Shown in pieces: positions 2,629-15,031 of a stretch of 47,206 nt of DNA. The notes beneath the pieces were generated by a model. That model saw only the letters and a list, made by a program, of their open reading frames with translations. It ran no database searches and was not told the DNA's origin. This DNA comes from a virus, in IMG/VR virus record IMGVR_UViG_3300030101_000969, positions 5,324 to 52,529 of that record, one strand, 5' to 3'. The translations under genes and the position numbers were made by a program. Positions within the stretch are counted from its first letter, which is position 1. Each line of letters opens with the position of its first letter.

Positions 2629-3695
2629 TAAATTTTCTCCTTTATGAGTTCTTTAGCATATCTTTCTGGACTAATCCCAAGACGCTTTGCGAGAGCGACT
2701 TGAGTTGAAGTTAACTGCACTTTGCGGGGTTTGCTACCATTATTGCGATTAGATGGTGCTACTACCGATTGTGTATTTCTGGGTGTCGCAGTTTCAGCAA
2801 CTTCGTTGCTTTCTTCAGGTGTTTCCACCCCGAAATAATCAGGGAAACGAATTCGCATACGCTTATCCACTTCCTCATAATACTTATCAGACTGTGGCGA
2901 TACACCTTCTTTAGTTACTAAAGTTTCGTGTATTCCATACGCCAACGCAGTCATTTCTTTTTGATCATCTGAACCAAACCATGAATTGTTTTTTAACCAA
3001 GCAACTGCTTTAGGGTCTATTGTTGGTGGTTGTTGTGGTATTGGTTGCTGTTGTGTAATTGGCTGTTGAGGGGCTTGTTGAGGAGCCTGTTGTGCTCTTG
3101 CCCTTTCTACTGCCAAATGATCTTCTGCAACTTTTAATTCTTGTTGAGCCTTCAACATATCATTAGTTGCATTAGTTATTTGTTCTGTATCACCTGACTC
3201 ATGTGCAGCCATGTGATTTCTCTTGGCTTGATCAAGTTGTGCTTCAGCCTTTGCTTTAACTTGTTGCATCAACGCACTTTCGCCACGTTGTACTAAAGCT
3301 GATAATCTTCTATTTTCTTCAGCTTGTTGTTTAGCAAAACTAACAGATTCTTCTCTTAGTTTTTCTGCGGCTTCTTTTGCACGTCTTTCTTCGTGAAATT
3401 CGTATTTTAATTTGTTAATACGTTTTTTTACACGTTCATCAACGCCATCTATTTCTTGTTCTATTTCAGCTTGATCTGCTTGTTTTTGTTCATCAGAACG
3501 AGGTGTTTTTCTGTCAGCCTCTGGTCTGTCATCTACAATTTCTACATCAAACTCTTCAGAAGTATCATCTGAGACTACAGTATTTTTTATGCCTAAAAAC
3601 TTCTCTTCTTGCGAATGAGGTTCTTCTTGCACTATATCTTCTACTGGTTCTACTGTTTCAAATTGCTCTTCTGCGTACTCTTCGTTTGTACTCAT
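2628..3695 (-). CDS. Scaffolding-like head assembly protein
   Basis: 355 residues, extremely charged. An acidic N-terminus (residues 1-85) is followed by a long Glu/Lys/Arg/Ala/Gln heptad-like region (about 85-205, likely coiled coil), a Gln/Pro-rich linker (about 205-230) and a C-terminal region ending in a basic helix (PRKVQLTSTQVALAKRLG). Acidic, helical, low-complexity proteins of this size between portal and capsid genes are typically scaffolds. The stop codon overlaps the next start. No protease motif is visible, so maturation would need another factor or none. The call rests on composition and position. Confidence 0.65.
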   Translation of the reverse strand: MSTNEEYAEEQFETVEPVEDIVQEEPHSQEEKFLGIKNTVVSDDTSEEFDVEIVDDRPEADRKTPRSDEQKQADQAEIEQEIDGVDERVKKRINKLKYEFHEERRAKEAAEKLREESVSFAKQQAEENRRLSALVQRGESALMQQVKAKAEAQLDQAKRNHMAAHESGDTEQITNATNDMLKAQQELKVAEDHLAVERARAQQAPQQAPQQPITQQQPIPQQPPTIDPKAVAWLKNNSWFGSDDQKEMTALAYGIHETLVTKEGVSPQSDKYYEEVDKRMRIRFPDYFGVETPEESNEVAETATPRNTQSVVAPSNRNNGSKPRKVQLTSTQVALAKRLGISPERYAKELIKEKI

Positions 3696-4081
3696 GCTTT
3701 AACCACTCCTCTTGGGTCTTCAACAACGGCTTCAACGCTGTCATCGTTTATTAATCTAAATTCTTTGCCGTGTACTAAGAATCTAGTACCGGTATAAGAA
3801 CGCATTATTATCCAATCGCCTTCTTTGCAATAAGCACCGTTAGGAAATCTTTGCTTATCTTTATAGGCATCCGGACCTAATTTCATTACAAATCCACATA
3901 TAGAGCCGAGAGATTCTCTTTCAACATAAGCAGAGGCTTTAATTATTCCTCCTTCTGTTTTCTCTTCTGCTTCGGGTAATGCAATTAATATTCGATAACC
4001 AGAGGGTTCTGGTAATTGTTTTGCTGTGGGTTCCTTTTTTTCTTCGGTTTTAGAAACCTCTATTTCTTTTGCTGCTTCCAT
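3692..4081 (-). CDS. GroES-like co-chaperonin (Cpn10)
   Basis: 129 residues. After a charged tail of about 25 residues comes a Cpn10-type core: GYRILIALPEAEEKTEGGII (compare the RVLV...EEKTAGGI pattern of GroES), a mobile-loop equivalent, KLGPDAYKD, GDWIIMRSYTGTRF and a final beta strand KEFRLINDDSV. The EKTEGGII segment and the late GD...Y strands define the family. Phages such as T4 (gp31) replace host GroES to fold their capsid protein, and GroES-like genes are known in marine phages. Placement between portal and scaffold fits a role in folding the capsid protein with host GroEL. There is no clear ribosome site; the ATG follows an AT-rich leader with a small CAGGT/ACCTG hairpin. Confidence 0.82.
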   Translation of the reverse strand: MEAAKEIEVSKTEEKKEPTAKQLPEPSGYRILIALPEAEEKTEGGIIKASAYVERESLGSICGFVMKLGPDAYKDKQRFPNGAYCKEGDWIIMRSYTGTRFLVHGKEFRLINDDSVEAVVEDPRGVVKA

Positions 4082-8681: not shown

Positions 8682-8709
8682 ATATTAAACACCTTCTCAT
8701 GTTCGTCAA
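8682..8709 (-). promoter_or_regulatory. Sigma70-type promoter before terL
   Basis: On the minus strand TTGACG (8704-8709) and TAATAT (8682-8687) are separated by 16 bases. The -35 box overlaps the stop codon of the winged-helix gene, so terL and the head genes can be transcribed independently of it. The resulting leader would be about 95 bases and contains no other gene. Confidence 0.5.
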
Positions 8710-9116
8710 GTGTTTTCTTCTAAATTTTTCATGCGGCTTCTAAAGGCATCCATGTCCCGCAGCCACTCTTTTTTCTTTTCTTCGGTGGTCATGTCCTCGC
8801 TCGAAATTTTTTTTTCCACCACTATGTCCGTCTTTTGTTCGGGCGGGGCAGTTTTATGAATGACTTTAGGCTTAACAGGTTCTGGTGTTATTTCTTTCTT
8901 AACTAAGGGAGAGTTCCTAGTAGACATCATAGTACGCCAACGTTTAGGTTGCATAGTGATCCATCCGTCCTCATGGAGCCGTTTTACGATAGCATGAATG
9001 GTAGACCTAGAGCTGACCCCAACTCGGCTCGCTATGGCTTCTAATGACGGTCCACAATGATTTTCCGCCCAATAGTCTTCTATTGATTCTAATACTAATA
9101 ATTGCCTTGGTGTCAT
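8706..9116 (-). CDS. LexA-type winged-helix DNA-binding protein without peptidase domain
   Basis: 136 residues. Residues 1-65 match the LexA N-terminal winged helix: TPRQLLVLESIEDYW, then a Pro-Ser-containing turn before EAIASRVGVSSRSTIHAIVKRL, then the wing GWITMQPKRWR. The rest is a charged Lys/Glu tail, with no LexA-type autocleavage site or Ser/Lys dyad. It is therefore a DNA-binding regulator or a packaging accessory, not a self-cleaving repressor. It lies between the small and large terminase genes and has its own promoter carrying part of the phage's repeated palindrome. I infer it may bind that palindrome and repress itself. Confidence 0.72.
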   Translation of the reverse strand: MTPRQLLVLESIEDYWAENHCGPSLEAIASRVGVSSRSTIHAIVKRLHEDGWITMQPKRWRTMMSTRNSPLVKKEITPEPVKPKVIHKTAPPEQKTDIVVEKKISSEDMTTEEKKKEWLRDMDAFRSRMKNLEENT

Positions 9117-9453: not shown

Positions 9454-9924
9454 CTATTCAGAATGTGGCATAGGGAGGGATAGTATTTCTTCTAGCTTAG
9501 TCTCAATCTCGGTAGCTACTTCTTCCGGTGTTCTATCCTTCGTGGTTGTCTCTATCCTCTCAACGAATAATCCTACGTCTGAAGTCTTGCCCAGTAGTTC
9601 AAGTGCCCTGATTCTAGCTGATTCATTATTGCTAGGGTTCAATGCTTCCTTTTGTAGCTGTTCCAACACGAGATGCCTAAGAGAGAGCACGCTTGCCTGT
9701 GCGTACTCCTCCTTTCTCTTGAATCCTTGCTTTAACCTTTGGGCAATCTTAGGGTTTGATTTCAGCTTACTAGCTTCCACATGAATAGCACTATCTTTCA
9801 TTCCTTTGGCATTGTACGCTGTTCTATACGCATCACTTGCTGAGTTGCCTTTTAGCAACTCCGCTATAAACTTTTCCTGTTTGCCTGTTAGTGGATGTAT
9901 CTCTTTTATATTGTCTTTGCTCAT
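9454..9924 (-). CDS. terS: Terminase small subunit (Terminase_2 type)
   Basis: 156 residues from ATG 9924. The N-terminal half has the family pattern: HPLTGKQEKFIAELLKGNSASDAYRTAY, then a helix with HVEASKLKSNPKIAQRL, followed by a long helical oligomerisation region and an acidic tail. It recognises phage DNA and loads the large subunit. A longer frame opens at 10083 but has an atypical Cys/Arg-rich N-terminus and crosses a plus-strand promoter, so the shorter start is preferred. The leader carries a CTGTCC-GTA-GGACAG inverted repeat (9939-9953) that includes the weak ribosome site and could modulate translation or bind a regulator. Confidence 0.82.
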   Translation of the reverse strand: MSKDNIKEIHPLTGKQEKFIAELLKGNSASDAYRTAYNAKGMKDSAIHVEASKLKSNPKIAQRLKQGFKRKEEYAQASVLSLRHLVLEQLQKEALNPSNNESARIRALELLGKTSDVGLFVERIETTTKDRTPEEVATEIETKLEEILSLPMPHSE

Positions 9925-10015: not shown

Positions 10016-10044
10016 TTGCACTTTGTCACACGTTTTGCTAATAT
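10016..10044 (+). promoter_or_regulatory. Strong sigma70-type promoter for the plus-strand region
   Basis: TTGCAC (10016-10021), 17-base spacer, TAATAT (10039-10044). Transcription would begin near 10051-10052, in the gap between the divergent small terminase gene and the first plus-strand gene. This is the best-spaced promoter on the plus strand and probably starts early transcription. Confidence 0.7.
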
Positions 10045-10051
10045 CCGTTTT

Positions 10052-10572
10052 GTCATTGAGAATTGATTGCCCCTTCGGGGCATAACGACCCTCTCGGGGG
10101 TGCCAATTCACCGCCTTCAATGACTCGCTTGTTAGCGACAAGTGGGACGGAAAGGTAAACGTCCGAGGAGATCGAAAGTCAAGAGGTGGCAAGGTACAAA
10201 TCGGAAGCCTTGTAAAAGTTGGTGATGCGAAGTTCCTGATACTACTGAGACTAAGTAGTGAAGATGAAAGAAGAACAGTTAACGGTTCAGAGATTCGGAG
10301 AAGGTAAAACAAGGGTCGGACATTTTGGGTCAGCAGATGAAACGCTGATTCAGTTATATGGAAAGCTTAGTATGTGAAGAGAGACACAATAGCCAACGTT
10401 GTTGGCAGTCACGGGTCCGGTGTGACGTGATACGGTTCGGAGCGAACAGACGGAAGTATGACTGATAGGTTGAGTAATCGAGGGGCAAGTTACTGCGAAG
10501 GTAGCGAGAGAGAAGACGGGCTTGTAATGGGTCCGTTTCTTTGTGGGTATTTCAACGAGTACCCACAAAGAA
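10052..10572 (+). ncRNA. Large structured RNA or leader of about 0.5 kb
   Basis: No plausible gene lies here, yet the sequence is full of stems: TGCCCC/GGGGCA (10068-10082), CTCGCTTGT/ACAAGTGGG (10124-10146, two G-U), GGACG/CGTCC (10145-10164), CAAGG/CCTTG (10190-10212), ACTACT/AGTAGT (10241-10259), TCAGC/GCTGA (10330-10348), GCCAAC/GTTGGC (10392-10406), GTCAC/GTGAC (10408-10426), GTTCG/CGAAC (10435-10447), GTTAC/GTAGC (10489-10505) and a perfect 13-bp stem (10537-10549 with 10560-10572). ACGACCC (10085-10091) can close the whole domain by pairing with 10529-10536, with one bulge. The segment is purine-rich and higher in G than neighbouring genes. No U-run follows the last stem, so it may be a leader or be processed. 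It resembles in style the large ornate phage RNAs (GOLLD, ROOL), but I cannot place it in a family. Confidence 0.65.
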
Positions 10573-10611
10573 GCGAAGTGCTTCGATTTAATTATTTAGG
10601 AGATAATCAAT

Positions 10612-11076
10612 ATGAAAAAAGAAAAAGTAGTTGTTTCAAGAATTACACAATTCGGAAAAATTTTAGAGAATAAATTCAAGGATGCTGTGTTAGCTGTTGA
10701 CGGTTCTGTTCACAGACAAGTTGCAGTTGACGAATGCAGAGCAGAGATTGCTACCTATAACAAAATGGTAAATTTACTTAAAGGTAATCCAATAAACAAA
10801 TATGACACTAGACCGGACAGTTATTTTATTTCCGCTAAGGTAGAAGATATTAAACCGATAGACGGTAATAAAATATTCTTTGATGCTATCAATGAGGAGG
10901 TCAAGGTTAGCGGAAAAGTTATTGCAGAGAGAATGAAAGGCAATATAACTATGAAGCCTTTTGCAAAAAGGGTCGCTTGTTTGGATAACGTAACAAGGGA
11001 TGATTTAGAAAAAATATTACCGGATTATGTTTCCGGTGGGCTTATAACAAAATTATTTAATGAGGGGGTGAAGTAA
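10612..11076 (+). CDS. Early protein of unknown function
   Basis: 154 residues; first gene after the early promoter and structured leader. ATG 10612 follows TAGGAGA. The protein is basic at the N-terminus (MKKEKVVVSRITQFGKIL) with mixed alpha/beta pattern and no transmembrane segment or known motif. Its last base is shared with the next ATG, so the two are coupled. A first-expressed phage gene often acts in host takeover, but nothing in the sequence shows this. Confidence 0.75.
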   Translation: MKKEKVVVSRITQFGKILENKFKDAVLAVDGSVHRQVAVDECRAEIATYNKMVNLLKGNPINKYDTRPDSYFISAKVEDIKPIDGNKIFFDAINEEVKVSGKVIAERMKGNITMKPFAKRVACLDNVTRDDLEKILPDYVSGGLITKLFNEGVK

Positions 11077-11822: not shown

Positions 11823-12833
11823 ATGCAAACATATATCAAGCCTTCAGAGTTGAAAGGCAAATTAGAAACGTTGATAGCTTTACAGAAGCCAACGTTTATT
11901 TGGGGGGCTTCCGGTATCGGTAAGTCAGAGATTATAGCGAAGGTAGCGGAGAAGCTAGACTACAATTTAATTGATGTCAGAGTTTCTTTGTTAGACCCCG
12001 TAGATTTGAGGGGTGTACCTAGTGTTGAGAACGGTGTTACCAAATGGAACCCTCCGGTATTCTTACCACGAGAAAACGACAAGCAATCAATCTTGTTCTT
12101 GGACGAATTACCGCATGGTAGTCCTAGTGTGCAGAATGCTTTGTTTCAGTTGATCAGAGACAGGCAGATAGGCGAGTACAAGTTACCTGATTCGACAATC
12201 ATTTTATCCGCCGGTAACAGAGTATCGGACAGAGTAGGTGCCAACAAGATCAACGGTGCACTTGCTAACAGGTTCGTACACTTGTCACTAGAAGCTGATG
12301 TGAATGATTGGGTTAGTTGGGGTCAGTCTGAAGGCAACATAGACCCTAACGTTATTGCCTTTATCAGATACAGACCGGAGTTGTTGTTTGACTTCAACAA
12401 AGACTCGGTTGCTTGGGCTAGTCCTAGATCGTGGGAGTCTGTTTCGGATATTGTCAAGGCAGACAGTAACGGTATGGTTGTTAACGCTCAAGACCAATCA
12501 CTTATTGGTGGTACGGTTGGCGAGTCAGTTGCGGTTGAGTTTTGTGCATTCATGGGAATGGTCAACAGTCTTCCGGATGTTTCAGAGATTATCAAAAATC
12601 CTGAGACTTACGAAGTTTCAGAAGACCCTTCTGTTTTGTACGCTTTAACCGGTGCATTGGCTTCAAGGGCAGATGCTAGTAACTTTGATGCAATCATTAC
12701 CTACATGACTAGAGAGGAAATGAGCAACGAGTTTGCGGTTCTTTGTGTCAAGGATGCAATCACTAGAAGCCCTAAGTTAACGAAGACTAAAACGTACGTT
12801 GATTTTCTTAACAAGTATCAACACATAATGTAA
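11823..12833 (+). CDS. MoxR-type AAA+ ATPase
   Basis: 336 residues. Walker A GASGIGKS at 28-35, Walker B SILFLDELPH near 90-98, sensor-1 like ILSAGNR, and an arginine-containing INGALANRF element where the finger is expected. VDLRGVP after strand 2 is typical of MoxR and dynein-related AAA proteins. These ATPases act with VWA-domain partners to remodel target proteins or insert metal. The two genes downstream (unknown protein, then metallopeptidase-VWA protein) complete such a module. A ribosome site AGGAG precedes ATG 11823. Confidence 0.85.
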   Translation: MQTYIKPSELKGKLETLIALQKPTFIWGASGIGKSEIIAKVAEKLDYNLIDVRVSLLDPVDLRGVPSVENGVTKWNPPVFLPRENDKQSILFLDELPHGSPSVQNALFQLIRDRQIGEYKLPDSTIILSAGNRVSDRVGANKINGALANRFVHLSLEADVNDWVSWGQSEGNIDPNVIAFIRYRPELLFDFNKDSVAWASPRSWESVSDIVKADSNGMVVNAQDQSLIGGTVGESVAVEFCAFMGMVNSLPDVSEIIKNPETYEVSEDPSVLYALTGALASRADASNFDAIITYMTREEMSNEFAVLCVKDAITRSPKLTKTKTYVDFLNKYQHIM

Positions 12834-12842
12834 GGAGTAGAT

Positions 12843-13730
12843 ATGCTATTAAATGAAAAGGCTCTCTTGGTTAGCCCAATAATCAAGAAATGGAATCCAC
12901 GTAAAGTTGATAAGGCTTTACGTGATGCTGTCGCTAGTCAGTACGGTGTTGATTCTAAGATGTTAAGTACATCTAAGAAATTGGTTGCTCTCAATGAGGG
13001 TGTTTTCAAAAGGATAGAGACAGTAGACAAGAAGATTAGAAATCATTGCTTCTACTCTATCGGTCAAGGGTGCACCGGTTTTTGTGTGCCCTATGACTAC
13101 AAAGGGAAACATCTTTTACCTACGGAGTTGGCAGATTCTTTCAAGGCAAGATTCAATGAGTATGCAGACGAGAGAGAGAGACTTGTTAAACAAGTTGTCG
13201 ATTCTTGGGATGCTATTGTTGAAGGTGCAAAGGACGAGTTGAAAGATTTGTTTGATGCTGAAGACTATCCCACAAAAGAAGAGATAGCGAGTAAGTACGA
13301 ATGCAGATATATTCAAGAGTCATTACCGGCACAGGCTTACGTGTCTGAAGTTGAAGACCCTAGACATGGTGTTTCAGAATCGGATGTAGTCGAGGTTCAA
13401 AGCAGAACTAAGTCTGATGTTGAACTTGCTACTGAGACAGCTACGAGAAACATTAGTGTTCTGTTGACACACTTAACTGACTGTCTCAAGAATGATAAAA
13501 CTTTCAGAGATAATTCTTTCGACAAAGTTAAGAATGCTATCGAGACTTTTAGTGCTTGGAACTTCAACAACAATCCGGAACTTGCAGAGGTGAGCAACAT
13601 TCTCACTGATGCAGTTTCTTCTATTGATAACGCAGATGTGCTTAGAAAAGATTCTACAAAGGTTGATGAATTTGTAGAAGCTTCAGACAAGGCTTCTGAT
13701 ATTTTAAATAACTTGGACGGTGTAATATGA
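12843..13730 (+). CDS. Partner protein of the MoxR-VWA module (possibly DUF3150-like)
   Basis: 295 residues, mostly helical and charged. It has a Cys-containing segment (GCTGFCVPYDY near residue 78) and long helices between 110-150 and 180-290. It lies between MoxR ATPase and VWA-metallopeptidase genes, overlapping the latter by four bases (ATGA), so the three are probably co-translated and work together. Phages with a MoxR/VWA pair often carry a middle gene annotated DUF3150, and this could be one, but I cannot confirm that from sequence alone. Confidence 0.7.
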   Translation: MLLNEKALLVSPIIKKWNPRKVDKALRDAVASQYGVDSKMLSTSKKLVALNEGVFKRIETVDKKIRNHCFYSIGQGCTGFCVPYDYKGKHLLPTELADSFKARFNEYADERERLVKQVVDSWDAIVEGAKDELKDLFDAEDYPTKEEIASKYECRYIQESLPAQAYVSEVEDPRHGVSESDVVEVQSRTKSDVELATETATRNISVLLTHLTDCLKNDKTFRDNSFDKVKNAIETFSAWNFNNNPELAEVSNILTDAVSSIDNADVLRKDSTKVDEFVEASDKASDILNNLDGVI

Positions 13731-15031
13731 AAACAGCAGAGCAGTTAATGACACAGGCTAGAATAAGGTTGATTGATAAACATCCTTTCTTTGGCAACAC
13801 AGCTATGAAGCTTAAGTTGATTGAAGACTCTAGCATTTCAACAATGTGCACAGATGGGAAGGTTATTAAATACAATCCTGAGTTTGTAGAGGAAAACATC
13901 ATGGCTCACAATGTCGGTGTTCTTGCTCACGAAGTTATGCACGTAACCAACGGGCATCCCTTAAGAAAAGGTAAGAGAGATCACAAGCTATTCAACGTAG
14001 CTTGTGATTATGCTATCAATCCTATTCTTATTGACGGTGGGTTCCTTCTACCGGACGGTGCATTACTAGATGATGCTTACCACGGTATGAGTGCTGAAGA
14101 GATATACTCATCCTTACTTGATGAATATGATCAAGACGAGGGAGACTCCGGCGGTGACGGCGAAGGTGAAGGCGAGACTTCAGACGACACAGGTAACGGT
14201 GACGGTGACGGTGACGGTGACGGTGATTCGGGTGAGTCCGGTGAGTCCGGTGAGTCCGGTGAGTCCGGTGATTCGTTAGCTGATTGGGTTCAAGACAAAT
14301 TCGGTGATCAAGCCGGAGAGTTTGAGGAGCAAAAGAACGAGGACGGTTCTAGCCTTTCAGAGTCAGAGGTCAGAGAGAAGTTAGAAGACTTGACTGTTTC
14401 TAATGCACAATCAGAAATGAGATCAAAGTCTCAAGGCAAAGGCGGTAGCGGTTTTGGTTCTGAATTGAAAGGTGCGACAGCTAGTGCTGTAGCATGGGAT
14501 GATGTGCTGTTACCTCTATGTCAAGATGCTTTATCGGACGAGCAGACCTACAACAGACCTAACAGAAGATTTATTGCAGAGGATATGTATATGCCTAGCT
14601 ATGATAAATCAGACATCAAGTGTGCTGTTGTTGGGCTTGATACTTCCGGTTCGGTAGATGATAAGTATCTGAGACTATTCAAAGGTGGGCTTACTAGAAT
14701 CTTTGAAGAAGTCGGGTTCGATACAATCTACGTTGTAGATTTTACTGATACGGTTGAGCGAGTCACAGAGTACAACAGGGGTGACGAGTTTGAAATGTCG
14801 GACAGGTTTTGGGGCGGTACGCATTTCGCTTCTGTTACTGATTGGATAGAAGATGAAGGTATCAATCCTTCTATGCTTATCTATATGACAGACGGGTTAG
14901 GTCGTGCACCTCTTGAGCCTGACTATCCGGTTGTATGGTGTCTTCCTGAAGAGGATGCACAGAACGAATACACGCTTAGATATAGCGGTATAGATCAATA
15001 CGGTACTTTGATTCCAATGATAACTGCTTAG
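13727..15031 (+). CDS. Putative metallopeptidase with C-terminal VWA-like domain
   Basis: 434 residues in three parts. Residues 1-125 hold a zinc-binding HEVMHVTNGH (68-77) like the metallopeptidase half of DUF2201-type proteins. Residues about 130-250 are an acidic Gly/Asp/Ser/Glu linker with tandem repeats. Residues about 300-430 form a VWA-like domain with the MIDAS motif LDTSGS, followed by WGGTHF and MTDG, the usual second and third metal-site positions. It is the expected partner of the MoxR ATPase two genes upstream. Role in infection unknown; control of a host protein complex or metal-centre remodelling are possible. Confidence 0.8.
   Translation: MKTAEQLMTQARIRLIDKHPFFGNTAMKLKLIEDSSISTMCTDGKVIKYNPEFVEENIMAHNVGVLAHEVMHVTNGHPLRKGKRDHKLFNVACDYAINPILIDGGFLLPDGALLDDAYHGMSAEEIYSSLLDEYDQDEGDSGGDGEGEGETSDDTGNGDGDGDGDGDSGESGESGESGESGDSLADWVQDKFGDQAGEFEEQKNEDGSSLSESEVREKLEDLTVSNAQSEMRSKSQGKGGSGFGSELKGATASAVAWDDVLLPLCQDALSDEQTYNRPNRRFIAEDMYMPSYDKSDIKCAVVGLDTSGSVDDKYLRLFKGGLTRIFEEVGFDTIYVVDFTDTVERVTEYNRGDEFEMSDRFWGGTHFASVTDWIEDEGINPSMLIYMTDGLGRAPLEPDYPVVWCLPEEDAQNEYTLRYSGIDQYGTLIPMITA
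14192..14275 (+). repeat. In-frame tandem repeats in VWA protein linker
   Basis: GGTGAC-type 6-base units (five and a partial) are followed by four exact GGTGAGTCC 9-base units bracketed by GGTGATTCG. They encode Gly-Asp and Gly-Glu-Ser repeats. The near identity of units at the DNA level shows recent slippage, so linker length probably varies between related phages. Confidence 0.85.

Follow-up and report, generated by a model that had tools for sequence, protein, structure and literature searches.

A large structured RNA, very probably outside the described RNA families, at the predicted head of the early operon in a group of tailed phages

The stretch of DNA analyzed here (the window; 47,206 nucleotides) belongs to an IMG/VR virus record of 52.5 kb (IMGVR_UViG_3300030101_000969). 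Leftward of the locus lie the genes for the terminase small subunit (9454 to 9924, - strand; phrog_51, E 3e-13), the terminase large subunit, the portal and capsid-type proteins, and an early-type operon runs rightward from 10612. A promoter-like sequence was read directly on the + strand at 10016 to 10044, with a -35 box TTGCAC (10016 to 10021), a 17-base spacer and a -10 box TAATAT (10039 to 10044), exactly as the first-pass annotation had placed it. This sigma-70-like promoter box is kept in 9 of 9 homologues, and transcription would start at about 10051. Approximately 560 bases without a convincing gene separate the promoter from 10612. They hold what we call the family A RNA (10051 to 10590, + strand), which is approximately 540 nt long, extends into the ribosome-binding site of the first early gene and has a G+C content of 0.48 compared to 0.37 for the window. 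The ribosome-binding site (TTTAGGAG) and the start of the first gene were read directly at 10595 to 10614 (+ strand). That gene (10612 to 11076, + strand) encodes a 154-aa protein of no family, and an unrelated gene stands in its place in homologues L016, L018, L021 and L023; depending on the member, the RNA is followed by a first gene of a 154-aa type or a 112-aa type.

Other features of the window were recorded in passing. At 11823 to 15031, the early operon has genes for a DUF2201 metallopeptidase/VWA protein (13727 to 15031), which PHROGs labels "HNH endonuclease," and for a MoxR-like AAA ATPase. A palindrome close to TATTGAACGTTCAATATTT occurs in nine copies, mostly intergenic (9420, 11783, 15118, 16824, 19388, 20624, 24553, 26828 and 36212). 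A LexA-type DNA-binding protein (Pfam LexA_DNA_bind) is encoded at 8706 to 9116 on the - strand, and the palindromes are possibly its operator.

Searches with the flanking proteins, with the terminase small subunit as bait, recovered eight IMG/VR contigs (L016, L018, L020, L021, L022, L023, L024 and L025) that carry the RNA in the same slot and on the same strand, which together with the window make nine distinct viral contigs. In all nine, the RNA is divergent from the terminase small subunit and lies at the head of the early operon. A further contig, L003, has most of the family A RNA and was left out of the analysis. A blastn search of isolate phages returned nothing similar to the RNA, no isolate with family A was present in the collections searched, and a 20-base exact pattern had no match in IMG/VR. 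A conserved 16-base pattern recovered the known members and three chance matches in unrelated DNA (L115, L117 and L119), and a covariance model of the 3' module, run on 64 loci of relatives, matched family A alone. The nearest cultured relatives by terminase include HTVC027P and HTVC023P, and phages of Pelagibacter, an abundant ocean bacterium, are among the nearest isolates. A scan of GTDB genomes for TerL found no relatives, and thus no host was assigned. Searches of the open-licence literature turned up no description of the family A RNA.

Folding of the region was more stable than that of shuffled sequence (z = -3.65), and in the strand comparison the + strand scored -3.71 and the - strand -1.84. 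However, several true homologues have z values near 0 (L024, -0.06) and so fold no better than shuffles; the folding score is therefore not decisive alone, and we dropped it as proof. It is covariation that shows the structure. We found approximately 15 helices, including two pseudoknots, with 95 to 100% of cells paired across the homologues and nearly all helices covarying, in agreement with the at least eleven local stems that had been proposed from the window. Two-sided changes were seen at 13, 10 and 10 pairs in the alignments of the three domains, a few P7/P8 pairs being counted twice. The covariation scores were reached by 0 of 500 shuffles, a count that is not a formal probability given that the sequences are few and mutually related. 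For that reason, the argument for structure rests on the slide controls, in which structures slid along the alignment fall to approximately 28 to 50% paired, and on the many independent helix types. The first-pass annotation had held that a lack of compensatory changes among homologous phages would tell against the RNA; many such changes were found instead. Collectively, these data indicate that the locus almost certainly encodes a conserved structured RNA.

As far as these sequences show, its three domains follow one another in a chain, the pseudoknots being local, and all of the elements described below are on the + strand. The 5' domain (10045 to 10188) contains the helices P1 (10052-10059/10117-10124), P2 (10060-10065/10104-10109), P3 (10068-10073/10077-10082), P4 (10088-10091/10098-10101) and P7 (10170-10172/10178-10180). 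Its 37 pairs were paired in 95.3% of cells, with 10 pairs changed on both sides among seven sequences, L023 and L024 having been omitted from this alignment because the aligner misplaced them. Pseudoknot P5 crosses P1 and joins 10111-10115 (CCGCC/CUACC) to 10185-10189 (GGUGG/GGUAG); all five pairs are kept in 9 of 9 homologues through changes from U-A to C-G and from A-U to G-U. The middle domain (10189 to 10317), which appears to be exchanged between phages as allele blocks, contains P8 (10189-10194/10208-10213) and P9 (10241-10246/10254-10259). None of its 19 pairs is broken in any of the nine sequences, and 10 of them have two-sided changes. An unguided scan of column pairs found a second pseudoknot here, PK2, between the P8 loop (10203-10206) and 10233-10236, which is 100% paired in the nine homologues as GGAA/UUCC, GCCA/UGGC or GUCA/UGAC.

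The 3' domain (10318 to 10586) comprises 48 pairs in eight helices, with 98.2% of cells paired, 13 pairs changed on both sides and 0 of 500 shuffles reaching its score. The helices include H11 (10330-10334/10344-10348), H12 (10392-10397/10401-10406), H13 (10408-10412/10422-10426), H14 (10435-10438/10444-10447), H16 (10489-10493/10501-10505, where GUUAC/GUAGC changes to GUUUG/CAAGC), H17 (10515-10522/10530-10537, with a G-U pair at its base in every sequence) and H19 (10571-10574/10580-10583). The long terminal stem described previously is real and corresponds to H18 (10539-10549/10560-10570). Its base can be extended to 18 bp at the cost of H17 and H19, and this alternative may represent a switch. 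Of the segments to which no pair was assigned, the most conserved is GAAGAGAGACACAATAG (10376 to 10392), which is invariant in the 3'-domain alignment and is a candidate binding site for a protein or an RNA. One proposed element did not hold up, namely the 7-bp pairing of 10085-10091 with 10529-10536 that was thought to close the domain. Its letters, ACGACCC and GGGTCCGT, can pair only if a C is bulged out, its 5' partner varies without compensation in the homologues (ACGAGCC, ACGAGGA and ACGAGTT), and its 3' partner is part of the covarying H17, with which it clashes.

The domains do not share one pattern of relatedness. The middle domain is 97 to 100% identical among the window, L016, L018, L021 and L022 and 96 to 98% identical among L020, L023 and L024, and between these two groups identity falls to approximately 52%. 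In the 3' domain, identity between the window and L020 is 91%, and the 5' domains give yet another grouping. This mosaic points to the exchange of whole domains between phages, and the exchange of the middle domain could reflect selection for specificity. In L016, L018 and L021, we also observed that a 27-base hairpin unit (GTTGGCAGTCACGGTTTGGTGTGACGT) is duplicated in tandem inside the RNA, between the equivalents of window positions 10397 and 10401.

A second RNA of approximately 480 nt, family B, occupies the same slot in sister phages whose terminase small subunit is approximately 50 to 60% identical (L006, L008, L026 to L031, L135, L137, L139 and L141). The two families share the slot, a similar length, the absence of any matching Rfam family and extensive covariation, which in family B comprises two-sided changes in 46 of 108 predicted pairs. 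However, they have no detectable sequence similarity, and family B is often followed by a hammerhead-like element. An apparent covarying long-range pairing was also seen in family B (ACUGG/CCAGU, ACUAGG/CCUAGU and ACAGAA/UUCUGU). A three-way hammerhead-like element lies directly 5' of the first ribosome-binding site in L026 to L028, L030 and L031; its layout is GUC, stem, CUGA(N)NGAG, stem, GAAAC, with extra bases in the core. The element of L028 (approximately 2240 to 2335, - strand) has an AAUUAA stem-I loop as well as extra core bases, and insertion after core position A6 is a natural hammerhead variant with low activity (PMC3088659). Rfam called none of the hammerhead-like elements of the relatives.

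Elements with the AAUUAA loop were likewise noted in L026, L027, L030 and L031, and at L042:3113, L045:1639, L061:706 and L008:2915, again in sister phages and just 5' of early-gene ribosome-binding sites. By eye, flanking CUCC/GGAG in L042, L045 and L061 could hide the ribosome-binding site until cleavage, an arrangement that folding reproduces in part. Canonical-looking hammerhead cores (CUGANGAG ... CGAAAC) occur in the early regions at L006:2890-2965 (+), L041:2968 (-) and L042:1455 (-), and the last of these is the only one that matches Hammerhead_1, below threshold (E 0.04). Among more distant terminase relatives, long noncoding stretches of other sequence fill the same slot, upstream of the terminase small subunit (L048, L057, L061, L074, L099, L108/L110 and L114). 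Several of them fold more stably than shuffled sequence; z values were -4.25 for L048, -3.65 for L108 and -3.18 for L114, each from one or two sequences, and we consider these stretches leads to further structured RNAs. In the Pelagibacter phage HTVC027P (L123), the intergenic region at 3189 to 3737 is G+C-rich, has a + strand z of -6.3 and ends in a terminator-like hairpin. The - strand of 3271 to 3391 in the same phage matches the Rfam Flavobacterium-1 RNA (E 7e-16), which is unexpected in a pelagiphage.

Several explanations other than a new functional RNA were considered for the locus. That the region codes for a small protein, with incidental structure, is scarcely credible. Short open reading frames are present (for example, 10458 to 10673, + strand), but those in 10045 to 10611 vary in place and length between homologues, the indels of the RNA alignment are not divisible by three, and the sequence changes preserve pairs, which bears out the earlier description of some 520 gene-free bases. 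An element acting as DNA, with palindromes that mimic RNA stems, such as a replication origin or a packaging site adjacent to terminase, would suit a position adjoining the terminase small-subunit gene; we regard it as very improbable given that G-U changes on the + strand stay paired where the opposite strand would have A-C mismatches, that pseudoknots P5 and PK2 covary, and that a conserved promoter stands in front. The G-U exchanges indicate that selection acts on the RNA of the + strand and not on a DNA palindrome. Just as improbable is a divergent member of GOLLD, ROOL, OLE, HEARO, RNase P or the group I or II introns, even though the size, the phage origin and the conserved 3' and variable 5' parts recall GOLLD (PMC12286853). 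None of these classes matched at up to E = 10 in 751 bases of the window on both strands, nor did they match in the homologues; ARAGORN found no tRNA genes and no tmRNA in the window, and no gene is interrupted. The Rfam search that the first-pass annotation had proposed covered 4227 families, and none matched the window or its relatives at gathering or relaxed thresholds. Thus, the RNA is very probably absent from the described families, and the suggestion of a large phage RNA of a possibly new class is strengthened. Finally, the "HNH endonuclease" label on the product of 13727 to 15031 raised the option that the RNA serves an RNA-guided nuclease encoded in the early operon as its guide or scaffold. 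We rejected this link because Pfam assigns the protein DUF2201 metallopeptidase and VWA domains, with a MoxR-like AAA ATPase as its neighbor, and does not identify it as a nuclease; PADLOC gave no match for six early proteins, and a guide role is most improbable.

How such an RNA would act is less clear-cut. Neither a strong terminator nor a second promoter was found between the RNA and the first gene, so the RNA is, as far as sequence tells, the 5' leader of the early transcript; this is the unusually complex leader that had been offered as the alternative to a new class. Our results support both descriptions holding at once, that is, a class new by sequence that is also an early-transcript leader, and its position and promoter suggest that it is made early in infection. 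Our leading reading, held at somewhat short of an even chance, is that this RNA is made as the leader, cut free and then acts as an RNA. On infection, host RNA polymerase would transcribe it first, continuous with the early mRNA, and it would be cut off near the H17-H18-H19 hairpins, just 5' of the ribosome-binding site. The cut would perhaps be RNase III-like and within H18 in family A, and made by the hammerhead-like element in the sister phages. The freed RNA would then bind a host or phage protein or complex, most likely via conserved purine-rich segments, with the exchangeable middle domain carrying the specificity for target or partner. Alternatively, the RNA may act in cis, either by loading onto RNA polymerase against termination, as put does, or by protecting early mRNA or tuning its translation, and we give this a substantial but smaller probability. 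In its favor, the RNA opens the operon, the first gene follows without an intervening strong terminator or promoter, and the placement of the RNA relative to the ribosome-binding site is kept in all members. Its unbroken run into that site is equally expected of a cis-acting leader, and HK022 put RNA provides a precedent (PMC9378689). However, family A is far larger than put, and a simple leader would not readily account for a middle domain that is exchanged as a block. The early region has 11 terminator-like sites compared to 9.9 in shuffled sequence, giving no sign of terminators to overcome. The first gene is not constant among members, and thus the RNA is unlikely to control one particular neighbor, while domain exchange suggests a molecule with its own function. 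The hammerhead-like elements of the sister phages suggest separation of leader from mRNA, which modestly favors the freed RNA over the cis-acting leader; some of them precede other early genes and may merely trim mRNA 5' ends, and a motif scan found no hammerhead in the window.

In a broader reading, the space that separates terminase from the early operon in these marine phages would hold fast-diversifying large RNAs (families A, B and others) that are made first and freed, in some cases by built-in ribozymes, with the middle domain of family A setting specificity toward the host or rival phages; we consider this doubtful as a whole. Still, it is rare to find large structured RNAs whose function is not known, and the presence of an unrelated second RNA in the slot of sister phages suggests that big RNAs have a general role early in infection by this phage group. 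The function of the family A RNA is made testable by its constant place in the genome, a predicted 5' end, the natural swapping of domains and two pseudoknots that covary.

In summary, family A appears to be a large RNA of terminase-encoding tailed phages that lies outside every described Rfam family. Among known RNAs, it comes closest to GOLLD and ROOL, the large ornate RNAs of phages whose structures were solved only recently; it is the same sort of object. Like GOLLD, it is a large structured phage RNA whose 3' part is more conserved than its 5' part (PMC12286853). GOLLD is often longer than 800 nt, compared to approximately 540 nt here, and is typically, though not universally, near tRNA genes, whereas family A heads an early operon beside terminase. 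ROOL, too, is a large RNA of phages that has several pseudoknots and no known function (PMC12286853). Family A differs in lying elsewhere in the genome and in no tRNA island, and it is not classed as a member of either group because it matches neither covariance model. The put RNA is much smaller, at approximately 70 nt. In phage HK022, put is a leader RNA at the head of early transcripts that suppresses termination of early genes (PMC9378689). Family A shares this placement at the predicted very start of the early transcript, in the order conserved promoter, RNA and first gene, and differs from put in having no structural match to it. The packaging RNA (pRNA) of phi29 is a phage RNA whose fold outlives its sequence. 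Whereas family A accompanies an ordinary TerS/TerL pair, is of another size and has no Rfam match, it resembles pRNA both in a fold that outlasts sequence and in adjoining the packaging genes.
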